Under the pieces are notes generated by a model. That model ran no database searches, was not told the origin of the DNA, and was given only the letters and a program-made list of their open reading frames with translations. This document shows, one piece after another, positions 790 through 43,065 of a stretch of DNA of 49,191 nt. Position numbers and translations under genes: made by a program. This DNA is from a virus: the IMG/VR virus record IMGVR_UViG_3300043331_001141, positions 1-49,191 of that record; one strand, 5' to 3'. How positions within the stretch are numbered: position 1 is the stretch's first letter; each line of letters opens with the position of its first letter.

Positions 790-1304
790 GAGAGTTCGGG
801 ATACCTTTTATAGACGCGTTCAAGAAAGGCCTAAGGCGATTTCCTATCAGCCACCCGGATGAGCAGTGGCTAGTTCAGTGCTATAATCTGATGCCTTCTG
901 ACGAAGGACTAGTCTCGCACGATACGATACAAGGGATAGGAATATCGTACTTATTCTATGAGTTCCTATTTATCCTTGACCAGTCTGGAGGCTTGTGGAT
1001 ATGGACTGCTGGGAGGGATGGAGCGATTGAGATAAGTCTAGGTACTCCTATGGTTGAGAATAGTCTAGAACCTGTAAATATTACACCCGATCCAATTCCT
1101 TCGTGGATCGAGCTCCTCGATACAAACGGTAACATATGGTATATATTTCCTGATGAGTTGTCTGGTCAAGTAGCTCTTAGCGCCGAACAGCCAGTAGTAG
1201 GTGTCGGACTAGCTGACTTTGTTATTATGGGGAAAACCTTTCAGGAATGGCAATACGAAGTTGACCCAGTTATTCCTACTTTTTATCCTAAGGAGATAGT
1301 ATGA
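786..1304 (+). CDS. Putative tail tube / DNA-stabilisation protein, N-terminal-type segment
   Basis: A 172-aa product from GTG 786, with AAGGAG upstream. Its opening (FPISHPDEQWLVQCYNLMPS followed by DEGL) resembles the start of podovirus tail-tube or packaged-DNA-stabilisation proteins, where an NLxPxEyGL-type line occurs near the N terminus. The protein is short for that role. The gene at 3412 begins with a segment that normally follows it, so the two may be pieces of one ancestral gene separated by the spike gene. The stop overlaps the next ATG (ATGA). The assignment rests on pattern memory and context, not on a catalytic motif. Confidence 0.45.
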   Translation: MREFGIPFIDAFKKGLRRFPISHPDEQWLVQCYNLMPSDEGLVSHDTIQGIGISYLFYEFLFILDQSGGLWIWTAGRDGAIEISLGTPMVENSLEPVNITPDPIPSWIELLDTNGNIWYIFPDELSGQVALSAEQPVVGVGLADFVIMGKTFQEWQYEVDPVIPTFYPKEIV

Positions 1305-3403
1305 AAAAATTCCTTATTATTCTAGCGATATTGATTCCAATAGTTTTTATTGCAGCATTTCCCAATGATACTAGGACTTTGATAGAAGATCACCTCGGCT
1401 GGTTTAATGTTCGTCGTTGTGGAGGAGACTATAATCAAGACACTATTAATTCATGTATATCGACCATAGGAATATTTAGTAGGGTTCTATATCTGGCCAA
1501 GGACCCTCTGCAGAACGTAACCTATTGGGACACTAATACAGATATCGTCTTTCCTTCTAGTATTATCACAGAGATTCCATTCGGTGTGCAGCTTCGTCCT
1601 GCTTTAGGTTCTTCTATTACATTTGGCGCATGTCCAAAAGCCGGCGGATACAGAATATTCGTTGCTGACGAAGTTACTACTGGAACCATTCTAGGTCTGG
1701 AGTCTGTATGCTCTGTAGTTGATGCTAGATGGTTCGGAGTCGTCGCAGATGGAGTAACTGATAATACACTGAATCTGAAGACTGCGATAAAACGTTCTGC
1801 GGGTAGTGCTCATCTAATTCTTCCACCAGGTACAATTATGATCTCCGGCGCGCTTAATCCTCCAGACAATATGTACGTTAAAGGGCAAGGAATGGGGCGC
1901 ACGACTATCAAATCAGCAGATGTCTCTTCAGGCTACGTTTTCTTTAGCAATGATGGAAGTGGGATACTTCGTAACTTCGTAATCGAGCATCTAACTATTG
2001 ATCCTAATGCGGCCGTCAACGATGGTCTAGCAGCGTTCGGAGCTATTCAACCAGGAATTGGAATAGGTGGCCGAGTAAGCTATGTTGAAATCCTTAGTGG
2101 TTTCGGCGGTCACATAGTTTTATTCTCGGGAATTGGAGAAGGTGGCGATAATGCTAGTCATGATAACTTAATAGAGAAATCGTTCATCTATGCTAATGAT
2201 GATTCAGTGCCACTTTTTTATTTCAAAGGCTCTTATGATAATCGAGCGGAAGAAGTAACTATTCATCAAGCAGGTAAGGGCCCTTGCTGTGGAGCGGATG
2301 ACTGGTCTACAGAAGGTCCATCATACGCTACAGAGAATATTACTTTCGATAAAATCATGTGTAAGAAGACGAGTACTGAAGCTGGTATCGCACCTCAGGG
2401 CTGTGGAACTACCGGAGGAAGAGGCATCAAAATTATTAATAGCACTTTTGATTTTAGAGAGACTACAAACTTTAATGGTACCGTAATAACTGTGCTAGAA
2501 GGTGCTCCTGGAACAAATGCTAGAGAAAATATTGAAGCGCGAAATGTTATAGTAAAAGGAAATACTATTCTTCTTCCAGAAGAAGTCGGGAACGGAGTTC
2601 AGGTTACAGGATTTTTTAATGAAGTGGTCAATAATACCATAACTGGTGGAAATTTTGGAATACTAAGTACTTTTCCTAATGATGAAAGATATGGTCTTAT
2701 AATCTGTAATAATATATTAGAAGATCAACTTACTAATGGCTTGTTCATGAACGGTGGTGATTCTATTATCATATGTGAGAATGAAATTTTCGGCTCTGGA
2801 GATGCTTGCGTTAGATTCGACGCAGATGATGAGGACATAAATCTAGTAACTCTTAGAGGAAACAAGCTTGATGGATGTTCGCAACAAGCTGTGGTGATTA
2901 CTGAAACGGCAGCTAATGTGACAGCGCTAAGAATTGTAGAGAATGATATAGGCAACGTGCAGATTGCAGATGCAGGTGCAGGATGTGGAATAGAAACTCT
3001 TGTAGGTGATTTAACTATTAATGTAGAAAGAAATTTGTTTGAATTTGCATCTGTTCCAGAGACTCTTGTATGTACCGGCTCTACTCAGTCTTATGTCCAT
3101 GGGAACCATCGGAATGGTAGAGGTCCAGATGTGCTAGATTTAGCAGACGTAGCAACACCTAACATCACTACAGGTGAGATGTTCCTCACAAACGGTACTA
3201 CAGCAATTACTGAATTTACTGGGTGTCAGGCAGGAAAAACATTTAAGATAAACGCAGATAGCACTAGAACTATTGACGACGTCGGAAATGGAAAATTAGT
3301 TATCGGAGCAGATTTTACCATGAACGCTGGAGACTCCGCTACTTTTACCTGCTATACTGGCGGAGTCGCAACCCTGGACTTCTTCAAAGATAATTCACCT
3401 TAG
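1301..3403 (+). CDS. Tail spike, pectate-lyase-like beta-helix
   Basis: A 700-aa protein. Residues about 140-200 carry the pectate-lyase-superfamily entry: WFGVVADGVTDNTLNLKTAI, then ILPPGTIMISG and a conserved G-x-G-x-G-RTTI segment. A long region rich in short N/G/I strands follows, typical of a right-handed parallel beta-helix found in tail spikes that bind or cut surface polysaccharide. Unusually, the first about 20 residues (MKKFLIILAILIPIVFIAAF) look like a signal peptide or membrane anchor. It overlaps the upstream stop by 4 bp and lies inside the tail gene cluster. Enzymatic activity cannot be judged from sequence alone. Confidence 0.8.
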   Translation: MKKFLIILAILIPIVFIAAFPNDTRTLIEDHLGWFNVRRCGGDYNQDTINSCISTIGIFSRVLYLAKDPLQNVTYWDTNTDIVFPSSIITEIPFGVQLRPALGSSITFGACPKAGGYRIFVADEVTTGTILGLESVCSVVDARWFGVVADGVTDNTLNLKTAIKRSAGSAHLILPPGTIMISGALNPPDNMYVKGQGMGRTTIKSADVSSGYVFFSNDGSGILRNFVIEHLTIDPNAAVNDGLAAFGAIQPGIGIGGRVSYVEILSGFGGHIVLFSGIGEGGDNASHDNLIEKSFIYANDDSVPLFYFKGSYDNRAEEVTIHQAGKGPCCGADDWSTEGPSYATENITFDKIMCKKTSTEAGIAPQGCGTTGGRGIKIINSTFDFRETTNFNGTVITVLEGAPGTNARENIEARNVIVKGNTILLPEEVGNGVQVTGFFNEVVNNTITGGNFGILSTFPNDERYGLIICNNILEDQLTNGLFMNGGDSIIICENEIFGSGDACVRFDADDEDINLVTLRGNKLDGCSQQAVVITETAANVTALRIVENDIGNVQIADAGAGCGIETLVGDLTINVERNLFEFASVPETLVCTGSTQSYVHGNHRNGRGPDVLDLADVATPNITTGEMFLTNGTTAITEFTGCQAGKTFKINADSTRTIDDVGNGKLVIGADFTMNAGDSATFTCYTGGVATLDFFKDNSP

Positions 3404-4728: not shown

Positions 4729-5165
4729 AGTATTATTTCATTCGTATGTTGCCAGATCAGATAATGAATTACTGGTATGAAATCAAGCCTTATATCGAGG
4801 AAGCACTACCGGAGGATGAAAGAGAAGGAATACTACAGGTACAAGAAAAAATACTTATTGATCGACTCCAGTGCTGGCTACTACTTTACGAAGATGGTGA
4901 AACTCATGGTGCTAAAGCAGTCGTAACTACTTCTATTATCACAGATGAGTTTACAGGGGCGAAGAGATTGCTAATATACACTATTAGTAGAATTAATCAA
5001 TTTCCTATCGAATGTTGGGACTTGTGTTATGAGAAGCTACTAAAATATGCCAGTGCTAATGGATGTAATAGAATGGTAGCTTTCTCCGAGATTCCATACG
5101 TGTTGAAGAAGGCTGAAAGTCTTGGTGCTAATATTAATCAGCACCTAATTCAATTCTTTGTTTAA
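4725..5165 (+). CDS. GNAT-fold-like protein in the virion cluster
   Basis: A 146-aa product whose ATG overlaps the previous stop (ATGA). The layout of an N-terminal helix pair, central strands (TTSIITDEF, LLIYTISRI) and a C-terminal LGAN..QHLIQFFV segment resembles the GNAT acetyltransferase fold. Phages often encode such proteins among internal virion genes (T7 gp13 occupies this position). No acetyl-CoA loop is convincing. The stop codon lies within a copy of the dispersed palindrome (5156-5178). Confidence 0.5.
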   Translation: MKYYFIRMLPDQIMNYWYEIKPYIEEALPEDEREGILQVQEKILIDRLQCWLLLYEDGETHGAKAVVTTSIITDEFTGAKRLLIYTISRINQFPIECWDLCYEKLLKYASANGCNRMVAFSEIPYVLKKAESLGANINQHLIQFFV

Positions 5166-31981: not shown

Positions 31982-32034
31982 CCCACATTAGTGTGTGCAT
32001 GCAATAAGGTTGCACGAAGAAACATTAATGTGGG
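31982..32034. promoter_or_regulatory. Inverted repeat upstream of the rightward promoter
   Basis: CCCACATTA (31982-31990) and TAATGTGGG (32026-32034) flank an inner TGCAA..TTGCA palindrome (32000-32014). Directly before the -35 box, it may be an operator. Confidence 0.55.
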
Positions 32035-32036
32035 CC

Positions 32037-32065
32037 TTGACATGGGCGAGGCTTGGTGATATAAT
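32037..32065 (+). promoter_or_regulatory. Rightward promoter for the late arm
   Basis: TTGACA (32037-32042), 17-bp spacer, TATAAT (32060-32065) with extended -10 TG. It is the only strong rightward promoter seen and lies 62 bp upstream of ATG 32127. Confidence 0.88.
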
Positions 32066-32126
32066 CAAGGGGATTGAAAGGAAGAGCGAAGGTGGAGGCC
32101 GCGCTCAGCGATCGGGAGGAGGGGAG

Positions 32127-32660
32127 ATGGAGGAGAGAAGGGACAGGCGGTTTAAGGAGCCGGGGATGCCTCGGCAGTGGGAGACGAAGCAGCTGTGGGA
32201 CCATCATAAGGAGATTCTCCGGCGCCTGGCGATGGGGCAGAGGAGCGAGTCGATAGCGGCGGACCTGGGGATTACGACTCAGACGGTGAGCAATACCAGG
32301 AATTCTGCCCTAGGGCGAGCGAAGGTGACAGAGCTGCAGAGTGCCCGAGACGCGGAGGCGACCGAGATTGCGAAGAGGATTGAAGAGTTCGCCCCTGTGT
32401 GCCTGGATTTGCTAGAAGATGTTATTCAGGGTAGAGCGATGAGGACTGGAAGGGGTGAGCCGATTGATATGCCGATGAGTTCTAGAGTTCGGGTCGCTGA
32501 GAGGCACTTGAGCCGCGCTGGACATGGGGAGATAAAGAGGCGGTTTAGCGTGACAAAGCGGCTGACTGACGAAGAGATCGAAGGGATTAAGTCGAGATCA
32601 GTCGCAGCAATGAAAGAAGCTGGGGTGATAAACGCCCAGTTTGAGAGGATTGAGGAATAA
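32127..32660 (+). CDS. Putative terminase small subunit
   Basis: The start is set at ATG 32127, with GGGAGGAGGGGAG upstream; 177 aa. A helix-turn-helix (SESIAADLGITTQTVSNTRN) is followed by helices and a C-terminal RHLSRAGHGEIKRRF stretch. This HTH-plus-oligomerisation layout fits a small terminase that recognises phage DNA for packaging. The large subunit is at 41554, about 9 kb away, separated by the lysis and receptor-binding genes. A transcription regulator is the alternative. First late gene. Confidence 0.55.
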   Translation: MEERRDRRFKEPGMPRQWETKQLWDHHKEILRRLAMGQRSESIAADLGITTQTVSNTRNSALGRAKVTELQSARDAEATEIAKRIEEFAPVCLDLLEDVIQGRAMRTGRGEPIDMPMSSRVRVAERHLSRAGHGEIKRRFSVTKRLTDEEIEGIKSRSVAAMKEAGVINAQFERIEE

Positions 32661-33009: not shown

Positions 33010-33122
33010 CTAAAGCGTGGCAGTGGCTCGTTGTGATCCCTCCAGCTCTGCTCGTGGTAGGCATTATCTACCTGGTAGTGGTGAGATGGGTAGGAAGGTG
33101 GGGCGGGAGATTACCACGATGA
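33006..33122 (+). CDS. 38-aa membrane protein
   Basis: TTG 33006 overlaps the preceding TGA and has GAGGAGGAAG upstream. One helix (LVVIPPALLVVGIIYLVVV) and a basic end. It stops within the next ATG (ATGA). The coupled overlaps favour translation. Confidence 0.55.
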   Translation: MTKAWQWLVVIPPALLVVGIIYLVVVRWVGRWGGRLPR

Positions 33123-33379
33123 CTAAGTGGTTTGAGCGACTTTTTGATCGTCTTGGCATTGACACTCTGCATGAGTTCATGCTGCCCTCACTCAGTTTTC
33201 TCATCTTCTGGTTCTACGTAGCAGTTTGCATTTATATTTTCCAACTCGACGCGATCAAGCCCGAGCACATGATCATCTTTGGATCGGCGAGTGCAATGGT
33301 AGGTATTGTTATCGGCTACTGGTTCAAGGCAGACTCAGTCATTGCGAGTAAGAAGAACGAGGTAGAGAAAGAGGAGTAA
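33119..33379 (+). CDS. Holin-like protein
   Basis: The start is set at ATG 33119 (ATGA overlap), giving 86 aa. Two membrane helices (SLSFLIFWFYVAVCIYIF and FGSASAMVGIVIGYWF) and a charged C terminus with many Lys/Glu. Size and topology are those of a class II/III holin. It sits in a membrane-protein cluster before the tail fibre, as a lysis gene might. The family assignment is by topology only. Confidence 0.55.
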   Translation: MTKWFERLFDRLGIDTLHEFMLPSLSFLIFWFYVAVCIYIFQLDAIKPEHMIIFGSASAMVGIVIGYWFKADSVIASKKNEVEKEE

Positions 33380-33556: not shown

Positions 33557-33868
33557 ATGGAGAAGCTAATCCTTGATCATACTTGCAATTATATGTGTGC
33601 TGCTTCCTGTCACGTCGATGTCGTTCCAGCAGAAGAGTGGTTAGATGAGTCAACTATAATGCAACATAGATCGATTAAGTTTATTGAAAATACCTACGAA
33701 ATACATATTCTCAGATTTCAAAGAGCTCGCGAAATGACGATAGAAGCAGATACGAAATGGGGTATAAGAACACATTTTGATGACGAAGGGAATATAGTAG
33801 ATTCAAATGAGTTAGTCGATATAAGTCGTATCTCCTGGTGGCTGATGTTTTTTGAGTTCGTAAATTAG
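33557..33868 (+). CDS. Hypothetical protein
   Basis: A 103-aa product; no strong SD before ATG 33557. It starts MEKLILDHTCNYMCAASCHV, has a strand-rich middle and ends in an aromatic WWLMFFEF. Lies between membrane genes and the tail fibre. Not recognised as an endolysin. Confidence 0.5.
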   Translation: MEKLILDHTCNYMCAASCHVDVVPAEEWLDESTIMQHRSIKFIENTYEIHILRFQRAREMTIEADTKWGIRTHFDDEGNIVDSNELVDISRISWWLMFFEFVN

Positions 33869-33878
33869 GAATATTTCA

Positions 33879-36680
33879 ATGCTATGTTCAAATTTTAAAC
33901 ATAGTCAACGTTTTCCCAAACGCAAAACGGCTGTCATTCCTTCGCTCATACCTTCACTAGTTCTCTTGCTCATTGTTCTGCTCGCAGCCAGCGTCGCGGC
34001 GATGGACCTGAAGACGCGGACGCGGACAGGGGTGACGACAGGCAACCTTCTCTGTGCCAACGGTACGTTGCTCTGCGATTATCAGGTAGATGATAATTTC
34101 CTAAACCTTCTCGATGGCTTCTCCTACCGTGGCCCAGTTCAGGCCCTTGCCGCGGCTAATCAGGTCAACCCTGAAGGTGCTAGAGTAATCCCTCTAGTCG
34201 GAATAGGCGGTGCGGTTCAGCTCACTTCTAATCCACAAATTCTACCACCTCTTCTGACGAACTCAAACCTAATCAGAGAAATAATTCTTCTAGGTACTTC
34301 TGACGTCAACACTGTTACTTTCAGCGACGGTAACGGCTTGGACCTCGAGGGACCTTGGGTTGGAAACAACTCTTCTGCGCTAGCTCTTCACTGGACAGGC
34401 TCATTGTGGAAGGAAAATTCTAGACGCCTTCCTAGCAGTGGCGCAGGTGCCGATGATCAAATCGCCTCCGAGGTTCCTTTCACTCCTGCCGCTACAATCT
34501 CAGCTATCAATGTTCAGCTCGGTTTGGAAGAACTCTCTGCAGAGAAAGCAGAAGCGTCCGCTCTTAGCGCGCACACAAGTGCAACTACCAGCGTTCATGG
34601 AATCGCCAATACAGCGGCATTACTATCTCGTGGCTCTCTAACGGATACAAAGCTTTGCACGTACGATCTAGCTGCGGACGAGATCGATTGTATCTCTGAT
34701 CCTTCCGCCGTTGGTCCAGATTCTATCGGAACTAGTGAACTCGACGACGGCGGTGATACTCCTGGGAGCGGCGAGTATCTCCGTGCTGATACTGTCGATC
34801 AGGCAGGTATCGAGTATCGTACCGCTGCGGAGACTCGTGCGGACATTGGAGCGGACAATGCTAGTAATCTTATATCAGGCACTATCCCTGCTGCTCGTAT
34901 AGGTAGTACCTCTATTGATAATACTAAAATGGCTGCTATGTCACAGAATGTTATAAAAGGTCGTATCTCGACCGGCTCAGGTAATCCAGAAGACCTTAGT
35001 GCAGCACAAACTCGAACTATAATCCTCTCCGTTCCATTTGACCTACTAGACCCAGGACCGACCAATGTAATCCCTGCTTGGGATGATGTAGAGAACGAAG
35101 TTGATTGGCTCAGTCCTTCCTCCTATCGCAGTCTTACTGGTTCTGACAACGCATCTAATCTTACTTCAGGTACTCTTCCTGGTGATCGTATAGGAGCTAG
35201 CTCTATTGTTAATTCTAAGCTAGCCAATATGAATGAAGGCACTATTAAATGTAGAAATTCTTCTGGCGCTGGCAGTCCCGAAGATTGCACACCTACTCAA
35301 GTAGCAGCAAGGATTGCGCCTGTACTTCCTGCTAATACTATCGACGCTTTAACTGACATTGCGACGGCACTTCGCACCGGCTCGCAAGGAATATTAACCT
35401 TACTTTGTAGCGCAACGACTGCTGACCCTACCGTTGACGATGACAGTGGCGATGGGTATGCGGTTGGCTGTCTGTGGGTCAACACCACGACAGGGAAAAC
35501 ATTTATTGCTCGCGATGTGAGCGTGGGCACAGCGGATTGGGTCGCTCTGGGGCCAACGGTTATCACTGCAGCAACGCAATATGATGGCAACAGTAACGCC
35601 GATTTTGCCATACATGGAACACTCTTTAAGAACACCTCGCAAGTTGTTGATGACGATACAGATACTATAGACCCTGGCACCGTCATCTATGCGTACCACA
35701 TTCACACGCTCAATACAGGGAGTGCCGGGGCTGTCAACTTGGTGTCTGACCCACAGATCACCAATGGCACCAATGGCCAAATGGTCTGGTTTTGCGGGGA
35801 CTCTGACACCAACTATCCCATCCTAGAAGATGGGGATGGGTTGGTCTTACGTTCAGCGATTAATCTTCAAGACCAAATCTGTCTTGAAGCTCAGTACATT
35901 ACGGGCACAGGATGGATTGAGCGTGATCGAACCCCGACAGCGACCATCGGGGGTACAGACACCCAGGTTGTCTTTATTGATGGAACCACGCCAAAAGGTA
36001 ATAGCGGGTTGACATTTAACAAGACAACTAAGGTGCTCACAGCGACCGGAGGCTTTGTCTCGTCGTGCGATGCAGCTACTCAGGAGTGTGGACCCTATGT
36101 CGGCGGGTCGGTCGAGACGGCTGACCCAGTAGATACGACAGATTCAGGCACAGGCACAGTGATTCTTCGTGCTGGTGTCGGTTTACAGTCGCGTGAGGGC
36201 AATGGGCCTGTCGTGACCGCTGTGTCGAATCTCGGCGGCGCGATTCTCTCAGGGACGGGGCCAACGGTTAATGCCGCCGGTGAGATAGCCGTTGACACGT
36301 CCGCTGACCAACTTGTTTATTATGGCTCTGCCGAGCAGGTCATTAGCGCAGTAAAAACAGCAGATATCATGATTGAATCCCCGGTATCTGGTCAGACGAG
36401 GATGTTTTTTAAGCATCCACGAGCCATTACAATTGATTCGATGAACTGTATATCAGAAGACGCAACAAGTGCAGTAATGACGCTGCAAGAATGCGATGCT
36501 GATGGCAATAGTTGTGGAACAGTAGAAGCGATCACCTGTGCAACGACAAACACTAATGACAATGGGATTGATGATGCTTCCATAGCGGCTGGAGCGAGGC
36601 TTCGCATACTGATGGGAACAGTCACGGGCACACCAGGACACGTCCATGTGCATTTTAACTATAAGGAGACACGACAATAA
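33879..36680 (+). CDS. Tail fibre with signal-peptide-like start
   Basis: A 933-aa protein. ATG 33879 has TTAGGA upstream and the start overlaps a palindrome copy. Residues about 15-42 look like a signal peptide (KRKTAV then LLLIVLLAASVAAM). The middle has repeated GTIPAARIGSTSIDNTKMA / TLPGDRIGASSIVNSKLA units and STGSGNPEDL / SGAGSPEDC phrases, typical of phage tail-fibre repeats. From about base 35400 the codon style changes, so the C-terminal receptor-binding half appears to have been acquired. The end is beta-rich. Confidence 0.75.
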   Translation: MLCSNFKHSQRFPKRKTAVIPSLIPSLVLLLIVLLAASVAAMDLKTRTRTGVTTGNLLCANGTLLCDYQVDDNFLNLLDGFSYRGPVQALAAANQVNPEGARVIPLVGIGGAVQLTSNPQILPPLLTNSNLIREIILLGTSDVNTVTFSDGNGLDLEGPWVGNNSSALALHWTGSLWKENSRRLPSSGAGADDQIASEVPFTPAATISAINVQLGLEELSAEKAEASALSAHTSATTSVHGIANTAALLSRGSLTDTKLCTYDLAADEIDCISDPSAVGPDSIGTSELDDGGDTPGSGEYLRADTVDQAGIEYRTAAETRADIGADNASNLISGTIPAARIGSTSIDNTKMAAMSQNVIKGRISTGSGNPEDLSAAQTRTIILSVPFDLLDPGPTNVIPAWDDVENEVDWLSPSSYRSLTGSDNASNLTSGTLPGDRIGASSIVNSKLANMNEGTIKCRNSSGAGSPEDCTPTQVAARIAPVLPANTIDALTDIATALRTGSQGILTLLCSATTADPTVDDDSGDGYAVGCLWVNTTTGKTFIARDVSVGTADWVALGPTVITAATQYDGNSNADFAIHGTLFKNTSQVVDDDTDTIDPGTVIYAYHIHTLNTGSAGAVNLVSDPQITNGTNGQMVWFCGDSDTNYPILEDGDGLVLRSAINLQDQICLEAQYITGTGWIERDRTPTATIGGTDTQVVFIDGTTPKGNSGLTFNKTTKVLTATGGFVSSCDAATQECGPYVGGSVETADPVDTTDSGTGTVILRAGVGLQSREGNGPVVTAVSNLGGAILSGTGPTVNAAGEIAVDTSADQLVYYGSAEQVISAVKTADIMIESPVSGQTRMFFKHPRAITIDSMNCISEDATSAVMTLQECDADGNSCGTVEAITCATTNTNDNGIDDASIAAGARLRILMGTVTGTPGHVHVHFNYKETRQ
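33882..33904. repeat. Dispersed palindrome, copy 13
   Basis: Core TGTTCAAATTTTAAACA, at the left edge of the host-recognition cassette and within the predicted first codons of the tail fibre. Confidence 0.85.
33909..33935 (+). repeat. Hairpin element, copy 3
   Basis: CGTTT-TCCC-AAACG, then CAAAACGGCTGTC. It keeps the loop and the 3' tail of copies 1 and 2 while changing the stem. Confidence 0.65.
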
Positions 36681-37777
36681 TGAAAAAGCTCTGGCTTGTT
36701 GTCCTTGCGTTGTCTCTGCATACAGGCGTATATGCTCAAACGCTGTTGCTCTGCCCCTATGAACGCATGGACGATGTGGCTGGGGTTGGGCGACAGCTTA
36801 CACTAAACCGTCTTGCTCCGCTCGATGTACAGGAACGTGAGGTCGAGGGGAATCAAGCAGTTGTTGTCCTAAGAGCCAGATCGGAAATCATCACGCAGGT
36901 TCTTAGTGCACCCTATAATTGTAGTCTTATTGATCGGGCCACCGCACGCATGCATATAAGCAACGGGCGGCTTAAGCCTCGATACAATGCCAGTACCGAT
37001 ACAATTGAGTTTCCTGTTCCTGCTGCCGGGGGAATGCGCATAACCTATGGTAATCCAGAACGGGAAATTCAAAAGCTAGAAGAAACGAGAGTGCGTGGGC
37101 AGCAATCTCTGTTGTATCGCGTGCTGCATCGAGTCATTGCTTGGATAACTCCGACGAACGCTCTTGCCCAGATTATAAATAGCGTGCTCGATGATTTTAA
37201 CCGTGCGAATGAGAATCCGTTAGATGGCGCAACAGATGTTGAATGGACAGGGCCTGTCAGAGCGTCAGAAACTCCGCAAATGCAGATTGTCAGCGATGAT
37301 GTCTTTCGCGCGACGGGGAGTGGAAATGGGTCAAGCTACTGGACTGTTTCAACCTTTGCGAATCCAGAAGTGTTTAGTACAACTGCCGATGCAACAGGGA
37401 ATACCAATGAGAATCATATCTGGTGGATCGTGTACGCCGGGGTGGGGACATCTGGGGCAGACGGCTATGCATTAATCGTGACGCAAGCGGCAACGGATAC
37501 CTGGTCACTCAGGCGTATGGACGATGACACGACGCTGACAACGCTGGGGACAAACCAAAACCAAAATATTGCTGCGGGCAATATCGTCAGATTGGCTCAC
37601 AGTGCTGCTGGCCCAGTTGCACAACTCTGTACCCCCACGTGTGCAAACGTTCATACCCACACGGATGTTACATATACAGGAAGCGCGCATATCGGTATAG
37701 GCATGAACAATGCCAATATGACCCATGACGACTTTGGGGGCGGGGCAGCAAGGAGAGGGATATGGGTCGTGCAGTAG
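36680..37777 (+). CDS. Secreted lectin-like protein
   Basis: A 365-aa protein with a clear signal peptide (KLWLVVLALSLHTGVYAQ). The C-terminal half begins DDFNRANENPL and reads like a concanavalin-type jelly roll (NHIWWIVYAGVGTSGADGYA). Its ATG overlaps the fibre stop (TAATG). It may bind surface glycan as part of the fibre or be exported. Base composition differs from the core genome. Confidence 0.65.
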   Translation: MKKLWLVVLALSLHTGVYAQTLLLCPYERMDDVAGVGRQLTLNRLAPLDVQEREVEGNQAVVVLRARSEIITQVLSAPYNCSLIDRATARMHISNGRLKPRYNASTDTIEFPVPAAGGMRITYGNPEREIQKLEETRVRGQQSLLYRVLHRVIAWITPTNALAQIINSVLDDFNRANENPLDGATDVEWTGPVRASETPQMQIVSDDVFRATGSGNGSSYWTVSTFANPEVFSTTADATGNTNENHIWWIVYAGVGTSGADGYALIVTQAATDTWSLRRMDDDTTLTTLGTNQNQNIAAGNIVRLAHSAAGPVAQLCTPTCANVHTHTDVTYTGSAHIGIGMNNANMTHDDFGGGAARRGIWVVQ

Positions 37778-39798
37778 GCTTACTTCTCGTGCTGCTGGTT
37801 GTTCATTCTTACGGAAGAGCTGCCGATTTATATTATGATTCCGTGGCAGGGAGCGATGGAAACCCGTGTACGCTGGCTGAGCCGTGCCAGACGTATACAA
37901 AATTAAGCGCAGATTTTGCTGCTGCCACGTGCGGGGATGCGTTGTTTCTCAAACGTGGTTCTACCTGGACAGCAAGTACCAGCTCCCATGGGTTGAATCG
38001 TTCTGATCTTGCCTGTACATCAGACAACAGGCTCACTGTTCAGGCATATAGTACCGGAGACAGGCCCATCCTCAACAACAGTGCAAGCGGCCTGGCTAAT
38101 GTGTTGGGGTTATTTAATGTGTCCTGGGTAGATGTATCGGGCCTTCACTTGATAGGAAAAACACGGAACCTCCTGGTTGGTGGAGGAAGTAATATTACTT
38201 TTGATGACATGGAGCTGGAGGACGCTGTACAAGAGTGCGTACACTTCCGCCGCAGAACCACCAATGCGGCCAGCACTATTGCAGAAAACATCACGTTGAC
38301 CGACTCCATTATCCATGATTGCGTGGATGGGGAGTTGGTTTATATAGGAGTAGACCCTGCACAGAACGGCGGGGTACCGGACACCTCAAAAAATATCACG
38401 ATATCCAACAATGAACTGTATGGGGGGATACGTGAATGCATTGAGATGAAAAGTGGTACGCAGAACGTGACGGTTGAGTATAACTATATTCACGATACAA
38501 CCAGGTCCTCTGCACAGAACGGGTGTCTTTTTTCATCTCGGGCGAGTGGCATTCCTGCGGGAAATCATATCATTCGGAGGAACATAATTAGCCGCAGTGC
38601 AGGAACGGGCGGGTACGCTATTCGCATTCGCAACGATGCAACGATTACAGAAAATATCATCATTGACAGTTCACAACATGGCATCTTGATGGAAGACCCG
38701 AACAACCTAGACTATGTGAGAGTTGTGCAGAATAACACGCTGTACAGCAATGCTGGCACAGGGGTGAGCCATGTGGCAGGGGATAATGACACGATAACAG
38801 GCAACATCGCCTGGGCCAATGGCTCGGGGAATGATGCCAGCGACCCATTATTTGTAAGTGCAACCGACAATGGGGCGGACGATGACAACTTGCGGTTGCA
38901 GGCAGGGTCTCCTGTCCCCACAAATGGGGCGCTGGTCTTTATGAGCATGGGAACGTTTACGATTGCGGGCAGTGGGACATCTGTTGTCCTGACAACAGTT
39001 CCTAAAGTGTCTCCTATCCTGGACTGTAGCGCGCAAGGAACAGCGCTGACCCTGACATGCTCTGGGTCTGGAACGGTGCAGAGTAGCGTATGCAGTGCAT
39101 CAGGAACTGATGTGACTTTTGGACTACCGTCTGCTATTCAACAGGGAGAAACCTGTACAGCAGACCTCACTGCCACAGTATTGCTTGACAGTGCTAATAT
39201 CGGGGGAACAGCATTTACTGGTGTGAAGAACGGGACAAACTTTGTCCTTGATGATCAAGCCATGGCAAATGGTTCGACGCAAGGAGAGACTGCTGAGAAT
39301 CTACTGACCTTGAGTAATCATGTAGATGACAGCGATAACTTTCATACTCCTAGTCGAGGGTGGGAAAACTTGCTTGACCCGTTGCCCATCGCAGACGAAA
39401 CAGACTCTGCATATACACAGGAAACGACTTTTTTTGTGGAGCATTGTGCGGAAACTGGGACATGGGATGTGGGCAACTTGCAGGTATATCCCGATGACGA
39501 TGGGAATGCCGTATGCTTGACGCTCGATGTTCAGACACGGACAGAGATAGCTGGAGCGTTGACGTTGCAAGTGGATGATGCGAATTGCAACTTTGACAGA
39601 CTTAATCCCCAAACCTATGCTATTGATGAATTGGGCATTAAGTGTGTCAAAATCACCTACACAGGGAATGTGTCTGGAGGTGTACAGGTGTCTCGTCATA
39701 GCCTGTTTAGAACGCCACAGGTGCTACCTTCTCCTGGCCCACGCTTGGTAACTATGCGTGGTGGTACTATGCGCGGTGGGTGTGTGGGAGGATGTTGA
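37762..39798 (+). CDS. Secreted right-handed beta-helix protein
   Basis: A 678-aa protein with a signal peptide (GLLLVLLVVHSYGRAADL) and then YYDSVAGSDGNPCTLAEPCQ, the usual opening of secreted parallel beta-helix proteins. Repeated N-x-I strands (NITLTDSIIHDC, NITISNNELYGG) follow to about 350. The rest is beta-sandwich-like. It may be a spike or glycan-active protein. Overlaps the upstream stop by 16 bp. The signal peptide is unusual for a virion protein. Confidence 0.7.
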   Translation: MGRAVGLLLVLLVVHSYGRAADLYYDSVAGSDGNPCTLAEPCQTYTKLSADFAAATCGDALFLKRGSTWTASTSSHGLNRSDLACTSDNRLTVQAYSTGDRPILNNSASGLANVLGLFNVSWVDVSGLHLIGKTRNLLVGGGSNITFDDMELEDAVQECVHFRRRTTNAASTIAENITLTDSIIHDCVDGELVYIGVDPAQNGGVPDTSKNITISNNELYGGIRECIEMKSGTQNVTVEYNYIHDTTRSSAQNGCLFSSRASGIPAGNHIIRRNIISRSAGTGGYAIRIRNDATITENIIIDSSQHGILMEDPNNLDYVRVVQNNTLYSNAGTGVSHVAGDNDTITGNIAWANGSGNDASDPLFVSATDNGADDDNLRLQAGSPVPTNGALVFMSMGTFTIAGSGTSVVLTTVPKVSPILDCSAQGTALTLTCSGSGTVQSSVCSASGTDVTFGLPSAIQQGETCTADLTATVLLDSANIGGTAFTGVKNGTNFVLDDQAMANGSTQGETAENLLTLSNHVDDSDNFHTPSRGWENLLDPLPIADETDSAYTQETTFFVEHCAETGTWDVGNLQVYPDDDGNAVCLTLDVQTRTEIAGALTLQVDDANCNFDRLNPQTYAIDELGIKCVKITYTGNVSGGVQVSRHSLFRTPQVLPSPGPRLVTMRGGTMRGGCVGGC

Positions 39799-40073
39799 GT
39801 AAGTTAATAGAGATGCTTATAGAAAGTGGTGGGAAGGGAATAGGAATTTTAATAATAGTCAGCCTTGTTAATTTTGGTATTGGCACATGGGCTTACTTAG
39901 AGATTACGAAGATTAATATAGAGAATGCACAGGAGGAGTATCTAATTGATGTCATAAAGGAACTTAAAAAAGCTGAGATGCATCATCAGGAACAGATCAA
40001 TGCCTTGAGGGATAGAGTCAGAGAACTGGAGATAAGGTTTGCTTTTAAAGGCATTCATCTCCCTGAGTTTTAA
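39792..40073 (+). CDS. Membrane-anchored coiled-coil protein 1
   Basis: ATG 39792 (or TTG 39795) just after GGGAGG; about 93 aa. One membrane helix (GIGILIIVSLVNFGIGTWAY) and a charged helix (EQINALRDRVRELEIRF). The same topology recurs at 41088-41510, flanking the protease gene. Confidence 0.55.
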   Translation: MLSKLIEMLIESGGKGIGILIIVSLVNFGIGTWAYLEITKINIENAQEEYLIDVIKELKKAEMHHQEQINALRDRVRELEIRFAFKGIHLPEF

Positions 40074-40088
40074 CAGGAGGGGTACATA

Positions 40089-41072
40089 GTGGCTGTTGTG
40101 AATATCCTTGTTGAGAGTAATATTTTTTGTGATATTGCAGATGAGATTAATCTGTATGTTGATGATTTGAGAAATCGGGGATATGATATAAAGATATACC
40201 CTATACGAAGAAATATGAGTGTTGCAGATATGAAAGAGTGGTTACGTGACCACTACCCTTTTGACGGGTTAGTGTTAGTTGGGAATATAGTTGCTCCCTG
40301 GTTTAAGATCGAAGCTGAAACATTTCCGTGTGATTTGTTTTATATGATGCCAATGAGTGATTGGATTGATGTAGATGGAGATGGTATTTTCGAGAGGGTT
40401 GAGAATGAGCAGGTGACTAATTGGGTTGGAAGGATTAAGGTTCCTACTACCGTAAATGAAAGTGGTATGTTGAATGATTACTTCAAGAGAGTGAGGGAGT
40501 ATAGAATAACTCAGAGATTGCGTAATGCGGTAAGCTTTGTTGATGATGACTGGAGTTATTTAACTGACTATGGGTTGTCGTTTGCTTTTGATGATGTTAG
40601 GATTATAAATAATGTTAGTGAAAGCACTCTTGAGACATATAAGGAGGTGCTGAAAGCTCCAACTCAGTGGCTACATGCATCAATCCACTCTACACCTTCT
40701 TCGCATGTTATCAGAGAGGCTAAGGGGAATGTATATCTACGGTATGACTATTTGAGAGATAATCCTTCACAGGTACGATTTTATGAGGTGTTTGGGTGTA
40801 ATGCTGGACGGTTTACGAGTGGGAATTATATTGCAGGGTGGTATATGTTTGATGCATTAGGAATTGGAAGGTGTAAGGGGTTAGGAGGTATTTTTAGTAC
40901 AAAGATTGGAGGGATGTTCTTTCCTGAGAGGTTTTATAGACTACTTCCAGGAAAGACTTTAGGGGATGCGTATCTAGAATGGTGGAAGGGATTTACAAAT
41001 CATAGTGCTAGTATGCGAACATGGACGTATGGGTTAGTGCTGTTAGGTGACCCAACGTTGCTTTGTAGCTAG
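40089..41072 (+). CDS. Gingipain-like (peptidase C25) cysteine protease
   Basis: A 327-aa protein from GTG 40089 with AGGAGG. Early strands (DGLVLVGNIVAPW) and a VDGDGIFERV segment lead to LHASIHSTPSSH (catalytic-His candidate H200) and FGCNAGRF (catalytic-Cys candidate C237), then GKTLGDAYLEWW and YGLVLLGDPTLL. This order matches the C25/caspase-like clan. There is no signal peptide, propeptide or Ig domain. It lies in the foreign-composition cassette; AT-rich. It might mature fibre proteins, attack host proteins or aid lysis. Confidence 0.75.
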   Translation: MAVVNILVESNIFCDIADEINLYVDDLRNRGYDIKIYPIRRNMSVADMKEWLRDHYPFDGLVLVGNIVAPWFKIEAETFPCDLFYMMPMSDWIDVDGDGIFERVENEQVTNWVGRIKVPTTVNESGMLNDYFKRVREYRITQRLRNAVSFVDDDWSYLTDYGLSFAFDDVRIINNVSESTLETYKEVLKAPTQWLHASIHSTPSSHVIREAKGNVYLRYDYLRDNPSQVRFYEVFGCNAGRFTSGNYIAGWYMFDALGIGRCKGLGGIFSTKIGGMFFPERFYRLLPGKTLGDAYLEWWKGFTNHSASMRTWTYGLVLLGDPTLLCS

Positions 41073-41087
41073 AGATGAGGCTCCGAG

Positions 41088-41510
41088 GTGGAAGAGGGAA
41101 AAAGGCTCTGCAATGTAAAGGATCGGATGCAGAAGGTTAAACATGGAAGTGTGATGTTTAGAAACAGATTATCGAAAGCTATTGAGAAATGGTTTGCGGA
41201 GCATCCGGGGGCGACAGTACTGAGTATTGCAGGGATGATTATTATTCCTTTGGTATTGTTCATCTTTAATAATTCTTCTGCTGATATGGGCGAACTAAAA
41301 AAAGTCTCAGCGTTGCATACGCAAATACTGTTTGAAATAAAGCTTTTATCTGGTCAGACTTCAGAAAAGGTTGAGAATTTTAGATTCACTATTATGGAGC
41401 TGCAAACATTATATCGAGAACATGAGATGAGACTTATTGAAGTTGAAAAAGATAACATTGTTATAAGGACAATATTAGAGGAGCGAGTACCTAGAGCTGA
41501 GGTAAGATAG
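41088..41510 (+). CDS. Membrane-anchored coiled-coil protein 2
   Basis: A 140-aa frame from GTG 41088; the start is uncertain (later Met codons exist). One helix (VLSIAGMIIIPLVLFIF) and a long charged helical tail (FRFTIMELQTLYREHEMRLI). It parallels 39792-40073. Perhaps anchors or times the protease; that is inference. Confidence 0.5.
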   Translation: MEEGKRLCNVKDRMQKVKHGSVMFRNRLSKAIEKWFAEHPGATVLSIAGMIIIPLVLFIFNNSSADMGELKKVSALHTQILFEIKLLSGQTSEKVENFRFTIMELQTLYREHEMRLIEVEKDNIVIRTILEERVPRAEVR

Positions 41511-41522
41511 GCGCAATAATTC

Positions 41523-41545
41523 CTTTGTTTAAAATTTAAACAATG
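41523..41545. repeat. Dispersed palindrome, copy 14
   Basis: Core TGTTTAAAATTTAAACA, at the right edge of the cassette, just before the TerL SD. Confidence 0.9.
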
Positions 41546-41553
41546 GAGAATAT

Positions 41554-43065
41554 ATGAGCTTGGTAATTCCTGAGCTACGCGATACTCTTTCACTCTGCTA
41601 TCAAAGCACAGGGGTATTTGGAAAGACTTTTGATCCTGAGGCATTTCCTACGCAGTTCGAGGACTTGCACAGAGACATACTCAGAGTTATTGACTCTCCT
41701 TCGAAGAAGAAAGCTATAGCAGCACCTAGAGGAACAGGGAAAACTACTATCATCCGTCAACTGTGTAAAAAAGCTATATTATTTCACGAGTGTAAATTCA
41801 TTGTCTACGTTATGAATGAGCATGACATTGCCGCTATGCAAACAGAGGCAATAAAACGTGATCTTCTGACTAATCCAGAGATAAAGAAGATTTTTGGTTC
41901 TATCAGCATAGACACTGATGATCCAGAGTTTGATGAAACCTTTTCCAAAAAAGCTTGGGCAGCCTGGGGAGATATACTAGTGCTTCCTCGTGGAGCACAT
42001 CAGCAAATCCGAGGTCTGATATATAAGAATCACAGGCCAGGATTGATAGTCATTGATGACTTGGAAAAGAAAGAGCTTTTAGAAAATCCTGAAAATAGAA
42101 AGAAGCTAAAGAACTGGTACCGTTCTGACTTAGAAAAGTGCATAGATCGTTATTCAAACGATTGGAGAATAGTCTACATTGACACAGTAAAACATAGTGA
42201 TAGTCTAATGGAAGACCTCCTCGCTGATCCTGATTATGAGTCCGTCAGATTAGAGCTGTGTGATGACTCCCTACATAGCAATGTTCCTGCGATGTTTTCT
42301 GACAACGAAATAAAGGCTGAGTATGAATCTCACAGGAATCGTGGCGAGCTCGATATCTTCTATATGGAATATCGTAATCAGCCAATTGCAGCAGAAGATA
42401 GAGGATTTAAGCAAGATTATTTCAAATACTACGAAGAAAGCGAAATTGACAAGAAAAACATTGAGTCCTTCATCATCGGCGATCCCGCAAAGACTGTCAA
42501 CATGCGTTCTGCAGATAGCGCTGTTGCGTGTATCGGCATAGATTATACTAAAGGTTGTGTATACGTTCGTGATCTAGTCTGTGAGAAAATGCATCCTGAC
42601 GAGTTCTACGAAACTATCTTCTCTATGCGACGTCGAATGGGCGCACGCGTGGTGGGAATTGAAGTAACAGGCCTAGACGAGTTTATTCGCCAACCTTTCA
42701 TGAACGAAATGGTAAAGAGAAAAGAAGTCTTCGACATAGTCTGGCTGAAGGCCCGAGCAGGTACTGAGGATGAAAAAGGAAAAGTTAAAAGAATTGGCTC
42801 GCTTGTCCCTTATTATCGCCTTGGCTATATGTATCATAATAGGGGCTGTTGTACAAAGCTGGAAAATCAGCTCATTCCGTGGCCGCGCGGAAAGTTAGTC
42901 GATGCTGCCGACTGTGTTGCATACTTCATCGAACTGACGGAAATTGGAGAACGCTTCTTCAATGGCTCTGTCAATGACGATCAGCAAGAGCATCCAGAAG
43001 ATGACGAGGAAATATACGCAAGTATTGACTACGATGAACCACTAGATGGCTGGCAGGTGATATAA
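41554..43065 (+). CDS. terL: Terminase large subunit
   Basis: A 503-aa protein. Walker A AAPRGTGKTT (about 57-66), Walker B LIVIDDLEKKE, then the RNase-H-like nuclease: FIIGDPAKTVNMRSADSAVA (first Asp), GIEVTGLDEF and VDAADCVAYF. It powers DNA translocation and cuts genome ends. SD GGAG follows the palindrome. It heads the packaging and capsid genes. Confidence 0.9.
   Translation: MSLVIPELRDTLSLCYQSTGVFGKTFDPEAFPTQFEDLHRDILRVIDSPSKKKAIAAPRGTGKTTIIRQLCKKAILFHECKFIVYVMNEHDIAAMQTEAIKRDLLTNPEIKKIFGSISIDTDDPEFDETFSKKAWAAWGDILVLPRGAHQQIRGLIYKNHRPGLIVIDDLEKKELLENPENRKKLKNWYRSDLEKCIDRYSNDWRIVYIDTVKHSDSLMEDLLADPDYESVRLELCDDSLHSNVPAMFSDNEIKAEYESHRNRGELDIFYMEYRNQPIAAEDRGFKQDYFKYYEESEIDKKNIESFIIGDPAKTVNMRSADSAVACIGIDYTKGCVYVRDLVCEKMHPDEFYETIFSMRRRMGARVVGIEVTGLDEFIRQPFMNEMVKRKEVFDIVWLKARAGTEDEKGKVKRIGSLVPYYRLGYMYHNRGCCTKLENQLIPWPRGKLVDAADCVAYFIELTEIGERFFNGSVNDDQQEHPEDDEEIYASIDYDEPLDGWQVI

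Follow-up and report, generated by a model that had tools for sequence, protein, structure and literature searches.

Organisation of the locus

The window (49,191 bases, the entire virus record) carries a protease gene enclosed by two genes for small membrane proteins, in the slot that ends downstream at the terminase large subunit gene (TerL, 41554..43065, + strand). The interval 39792-41510, in which the initial annotation had placed these three genes, is indeed filled by three + strand reading frames. The first (39780..40073) encodes a helical protein with a transmembrane (TM) segment, of 97 residues when read as the longest frame from the GTG at 39780 and of 93 residues from the alternative ATG at 39792, the latter overlapping the stop codon of the upstream fibre gene. 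The second (40089..41072) encodes a C25-related caspase-clan cysteine protease of 327 residues with the dyad H200/C237 and a C-terminal GDPTL, and the third (41088..41510) another TM-containing helical protein, of 140 residues. The protease gene is separated from each neighbour by 15 bp, has a strong ribosome-binding site (ACAGGAGGGGTACATAGTG) and is probably co-transcribed with both TM-helical genes.

The two flanking products had been described as membrane coiled-coil proteins. One TM segment is predicted in each, which agrees with the first part of this description; the coiled coil is only probable, with a crude heptad score of 0.75 for each protein, because the AlphaFold2 model of the 140-residue protein, all-helical throughout, is of low confidence (pLDDT 50). 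Searched against PHROG, the first flank gave a very weak match to an Rz-like spanin (E 0.014) and the 140-residue flank a very weak match to a hemolysin (E 0.0017).

Further upstream on the + strand lie a small-terminase-like gene (31995..32660), which is adjacent to TerL in the closest relatives, and a gene whose product has two predicted TM segments and is holin-like by size and topology only (33017..33379). These are followed by the genes of a large fibre-like protein with an N-terminal TM or signal sequence (33879..36680), a fibre-like protein with an apparent signal peptide (36680..37777) and, directly upstream of the trio, a beta-helix fibre-like protein also with an apparent signal peptide (37762..39798). 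Apparent Sec signal peptides are thus present on the beta-helix/fibre-like proteins encoded at 33879-36680, 36680-37777 and 37762-39798, as well as at 1301-3403, and the same export-signal fibre type recurs in the phage group (L096, L118, L110, L161).

Bases 1-197 recur at 48995-49191 as a direct terminal overlap of 197 bp that differs at one position only (99, A/C), so the genome of this uncultivated phage is very probably complete. Pfam and PHROG searches together with a survey of the reading frames showed that it encodes, besides the terminase large subunit, an SU10-type portal, DNA polymerase, primase and recombination genes, and one gene sits where the major capsid protein is usually encoded. 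The GC content is 46.8% for the genome and 37-39% for the genes of the trio, which look by composition as if they had been gained together; the difference would likewise suit an accessory cassette acquired recently.

The palindrome GTTTAAAWTTTAAAC occurs in 16 genome copies at no more than two mismatches, against 0.12 expected, at positions 5160, 7685, 13398, 16966, 20901, 22095, 25079, 26655, 28612, 30798, 31084, 31307, 33886, 41527, 45736 and 48698. Many of the copies are intergenic, and the palindrome is therefore a candidate phage promoter or operator. One of them (GTTTAAAATTTAAAC, 41527..41541, + strand) lies between the trio and TerL.

Fold and family of the protease

H200, C237 and the signature YGLVLLGDPTLL were located where the initial annotation had placed them. 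The structure prediction that it had proposed as a check on the dyad gave a caspase-type alpha/beta fold with a mean pLDDT of 95.5, in which H200 directly follows the strand 192-198 and C237 directly follows the strand 229-235, as in caspases. The best fold matches in the PDB were the SAVED-CHAT protein 8tl0 (E 2e-6) and Csx29 7y9x (E 2e-5); among viral protein structures no fold match was obtained at E ≤ 0.001. The assignment of the fold and of the catalytic dyad is well supported.

Used alone as a query, the protease gave no sequence match in Pfam, PHROG or PDB, and PF01364 (Peptidase_C25) was not matched by the phage protein itself at E ≤ 1; patterns from the single sequence in IMG/VR and tblastn against phages were no more productive. 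A protein from a Salipiger plasmid did match it (25.5% identity over 99%, E 6e-20), and the two-row alignment with this protein served as the seed of a family search, which yielded 154 relatives from the genomes of bacteria and archaea. The plasmid protein (L002 19815-23072, 1085 residues) contains, besides the family domain, a C39-like peptidase domain and RTX repeats.

Conservation was counted in an alignment of 50 rows, the phage protein and 49 others. Of the 50 rows, 44 match PF01364, several of the relatives exceeding the curated cut-off. H200, H206, C81, D82 and D154 are invariant. The position of C237 is cysteine in 48 of the 50 rows and serine in two, both from Porphyromonadaceae (L033 and L062), and to judge from this substitution the latter are possibly inactive forms. 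With H200 invariant and C237 conserved to this degree, the H200/C237 motif is far beyond chance. The phage protein retains all the invariants of the catalytic region and deviates at six otherwise conserved columns, e.g. D87 to M.

For a profile comparison (hhalign) with family C25, 11 canonical C25 domains were drawn from the same set of environmental genomes; they aligned over 305 columns with 97% probability and an E-value of 4e-11. H200 was paired with the invariant histidine of the canonical GHG motif and C237 with the invariant catalytic cysteine, and the C-terminal GDPTL of the phage protein was aligned with the GDPAL of canonical C25. The GHG motif itself is absent: the phage protein has IHS, and in the subfamily HS is found in 46 of the 50 rows and HG in three. 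No signal peptide, TM segment or hydrophobic N-terminus was detected in the protease, whose conserved domain begins at residue 4, and none of the signal peptide, propeptide and C-terminal secretion domain of the gingipain type was found in the 327-residue protein. Since GHG is missing, the Pfam model is not reached and the secretion domains are absent, the protein is classed by its sequence as a member of a C25-related subfamily and not as a gingipain. The earlier designation as a phage-encoded, gingipain-like protease of the caspase clan is thus borne out by homologues, profile comparison and model as far as the C25 homology and the catalytic positions of the dyad are concerned; the name gingipain in the strict sense would not apply. 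The proteolytic activity of the enzyme is inferred.

In the maximum-likelihood tree the phage protein was placed, on a long branch of 2.06 changes per site, within a clade of proteins of about 550 residues (support 99/98), the nearest of which are 35-39% identical to it. This branch is devoid of signal peptides and includes Nitrospirota, Desulfobacterota, Chloroflexota, Bacteroidota and others. The phage gene was probably derived from this apparently cytosolic bacterial branch, only the catalytic domain being retained. A conserved bacterial operon was sought in the neighbourhoods of the 550-residue relatives and none was found; genes of metacaspase-like proteins (L007 4743-5567, L008 9248-10153, L026 2431-3222) and of papain-like proteins (L014 7716-8594, L018 4252-5316, L025 4272-5084) occur near some of them.

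Distribution among phages

The initial annotation regarded such proteases as rare in phages, and the searches agree with this, a single phage with the gene being known across all the collections covered. No relatives of the protease were found in 50,697 phage genome records, in IMG/VR by a scan with a profile pattern, in 64 related phage loci by profile, or in 35 whole related phage records. The pattern used for IMG/VR is present in all 49 other aligned sequences, a figure that is partly circular, since similar patterns had served to find them; the profile applied to the 64 loci recovered the gene of the window at 1e-99 as a control. The idea of a three-gene unit conserved among phages had to be abandoned: the trio was found in no other phage, homologues of the 140-residue flank being absent from IMG/VR and those of either flank from the related phages. 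Literature searches on phage-encoded C25 or caspase-type proteases returned nothing relevant. The clan and the related family are known; within the scope of these searches, it is new to find such an enzyme in a phage and in this slot.

The corresponding slot in related phages

The locus was compared with those of 60 phages with related portals and of four obtained by terminase searches. In many of these relatives a lysis module, consisting of small TM-helical proteins adjoining one wall enzyme, is situated between the fibres and TerL or directly after the fibres. Upstream of TerL, single-TM helical proteins account for 18 of 110 small reading frames, compared with 23 of 448 in other positions, an enrichment with P 3e-4 when near-duplicate loci are counted too. 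In the phage represented by L100 and L165, whose TerL is 57% identical, the order is fibre, TM-helical protein, OmpA lipoprotein and GH24 lysozyme, the OmpA-family lipoprotein-like gene (L165 2866-3474, - strand) lying between the TM protein and the lysozyme. According to Pfam the slot contains a GH108 enzyme in L098, L133 and L142, an M15_4 peptidase in L139 and a DUF5675 protein in L118, L135 and L146, and M15-like proteins were recognised there by motif only in L004, L096 and L143; relatives with no recognisable lysis enzyme in the slot also exist. Response-regulator-receiver-like proteins, recognised by motif, are encoded beside two of the GH108 lysozymes (L098 6490-6933, L133 2316-2735), and a ClpP-family protease with an N-terminal membrane or signal segment (L004 1643-2233) lies beside an M15-like enzyme as another protease in the slot.

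In the window the protease, with one TM protein on each side, makes up this slot; Pfam, PHROGs and other scans of the entire genome detected no muralytic enzyme. The protease has the location of an endolysin, in the lysis slot and with TM proteins adjoining. Pfam and PHROGs revealed no peptidoglycan-degrading domain in it, and in view of the lack of a known muralytic domain it is not classed as an endolysin; caspase-clan enzymes are not known to be muralytic.

Possible role of the protease

Prokaryotic proteases with the caspase fold are known mainly as secreted digestive or virulence enzymes, together with effectors of defence systems. Among the roles suggested by the initial annotation, activity at lysis is the best positional fit. 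We tentatively propose, with a probability of roughly 0.4, that the caspase-clan protease works in the lysis module by cleaving envelope proteins, alongside a muralytic endolysin or in place of one. We infer the lysis role from position only: the slot is one that holds an enzyme in relatives, the genes are tightly packed, and no muralytic enzyme was recognised. Against it count the occurrence in one phage only, and hence the lack of any repeated gene linkage, and the missing signal peptide. The protease would most likely accumulate in the cytosol late in infection; permeabilisation of the membrane by the flanking TM proteins, or by the two-TM protein at 33017, would then allow it to reach the envelope, where cutting of envelope proteins would finish or accelerate the breakdown of the host. 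The stronger form of the proposal, namely that the protease is the main lysis enzyme, replaces a peptidoglycan hydrolase and is released or activated by two membrane-anchored helical partners, appears improbable, and an unrecognised endolysin is possible, e.g. at 33557-33868 or as part of the 1517-residue virion protein.

The absence of a signal peptide and of TM segments would also fit an enzyme that stays in the cytosol and cleaves regulatory or defence proteins of the host, its gene being an accessory (moron) gene on the fibre side. The closest bacterial relatives of about 550 residues appear cytosolic as well, in the PDB the fold is matched best by CHAT proteases from CRISPR and CBASS-type defence, and the low GC content and the absence from all related phages would suit an accessory gene. 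However, the gene is located in the late structural operon and not in an early region, and a cytosolic effector would not be expected to have TM proteins as neighbours; host takeover or counter-defence is accordingly a doubtful alternative, though the one that survives best.

Maturation of virion proteins, either of the signal-peptide-bearing fibres encoded just upstream or of capsid and other virion components, is suggested by the three immediately adjoining fibre-like genes and by the overlap of the first-flank ATG with the stop of the last of them. The fibres, however, would be exported and the protease cytosolic, and the protease is missing from relatives that have homologous portals and beta-helix fibres of a similar kind, likewise with signal peptides, which makes this explanation unlikely. 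Least probable is that the gene, bacterial in type, is a chance passenger or is decaying and plays no part in the phage cycle: the long branch and the six deviating columns would be in keeping with it, but the frame is intact, the ribosome-binding site strong, the operon spacing tight, the catalytic-region invariants are all retained and the fold is predicted with high confidence.

If the proposed role of the protease in lysis is true, phages can dismantle the host envelope by proteolysis, and the enzyme represents a new class of lysis proteins.

Comparison with known systems

Profile comparison shows peptidase family C25 (PF01364), the gingipain family of clan CD, to be homologous to the phage protein along the entire domain; the catalytic His and Cys columns and the C-terminal GDP motif coincide. 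The phage protein differs in that it is not itself matched by PF01364, has IHS instead of GHG and carries no secretion signal or accessory domains, and its subfamily has FPCDL and DDDW motifs of its own. With the C25-like proteins of about 550 residues it shares a clade and 35-39% identity to the nearest members; these proteins bear extra regions of about 110 residues at both ends, whereas the phage protein, on its long branch, consists of the catalytic domain only. The CHAT proteases (SAVED-CHAT 8tl0 and Csx29 7y9x) have the caspase fold in common with the phage protein, which is only about 10% identical to them and is devoid of the TPR or SAVED part and of a CRISPR or nucleotide-sensor partner. 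The lysis modules of related podovirus-like phages occupy the same position between fibre and TerL and likewise combine small TM-helical proteins with one enzyme; the flanking proteins of the window have no sequence homology to those of the relatives, and the enzyme, a muramidase or an M15 peptidase in the relatives, is in the window a caspase-clan protease.
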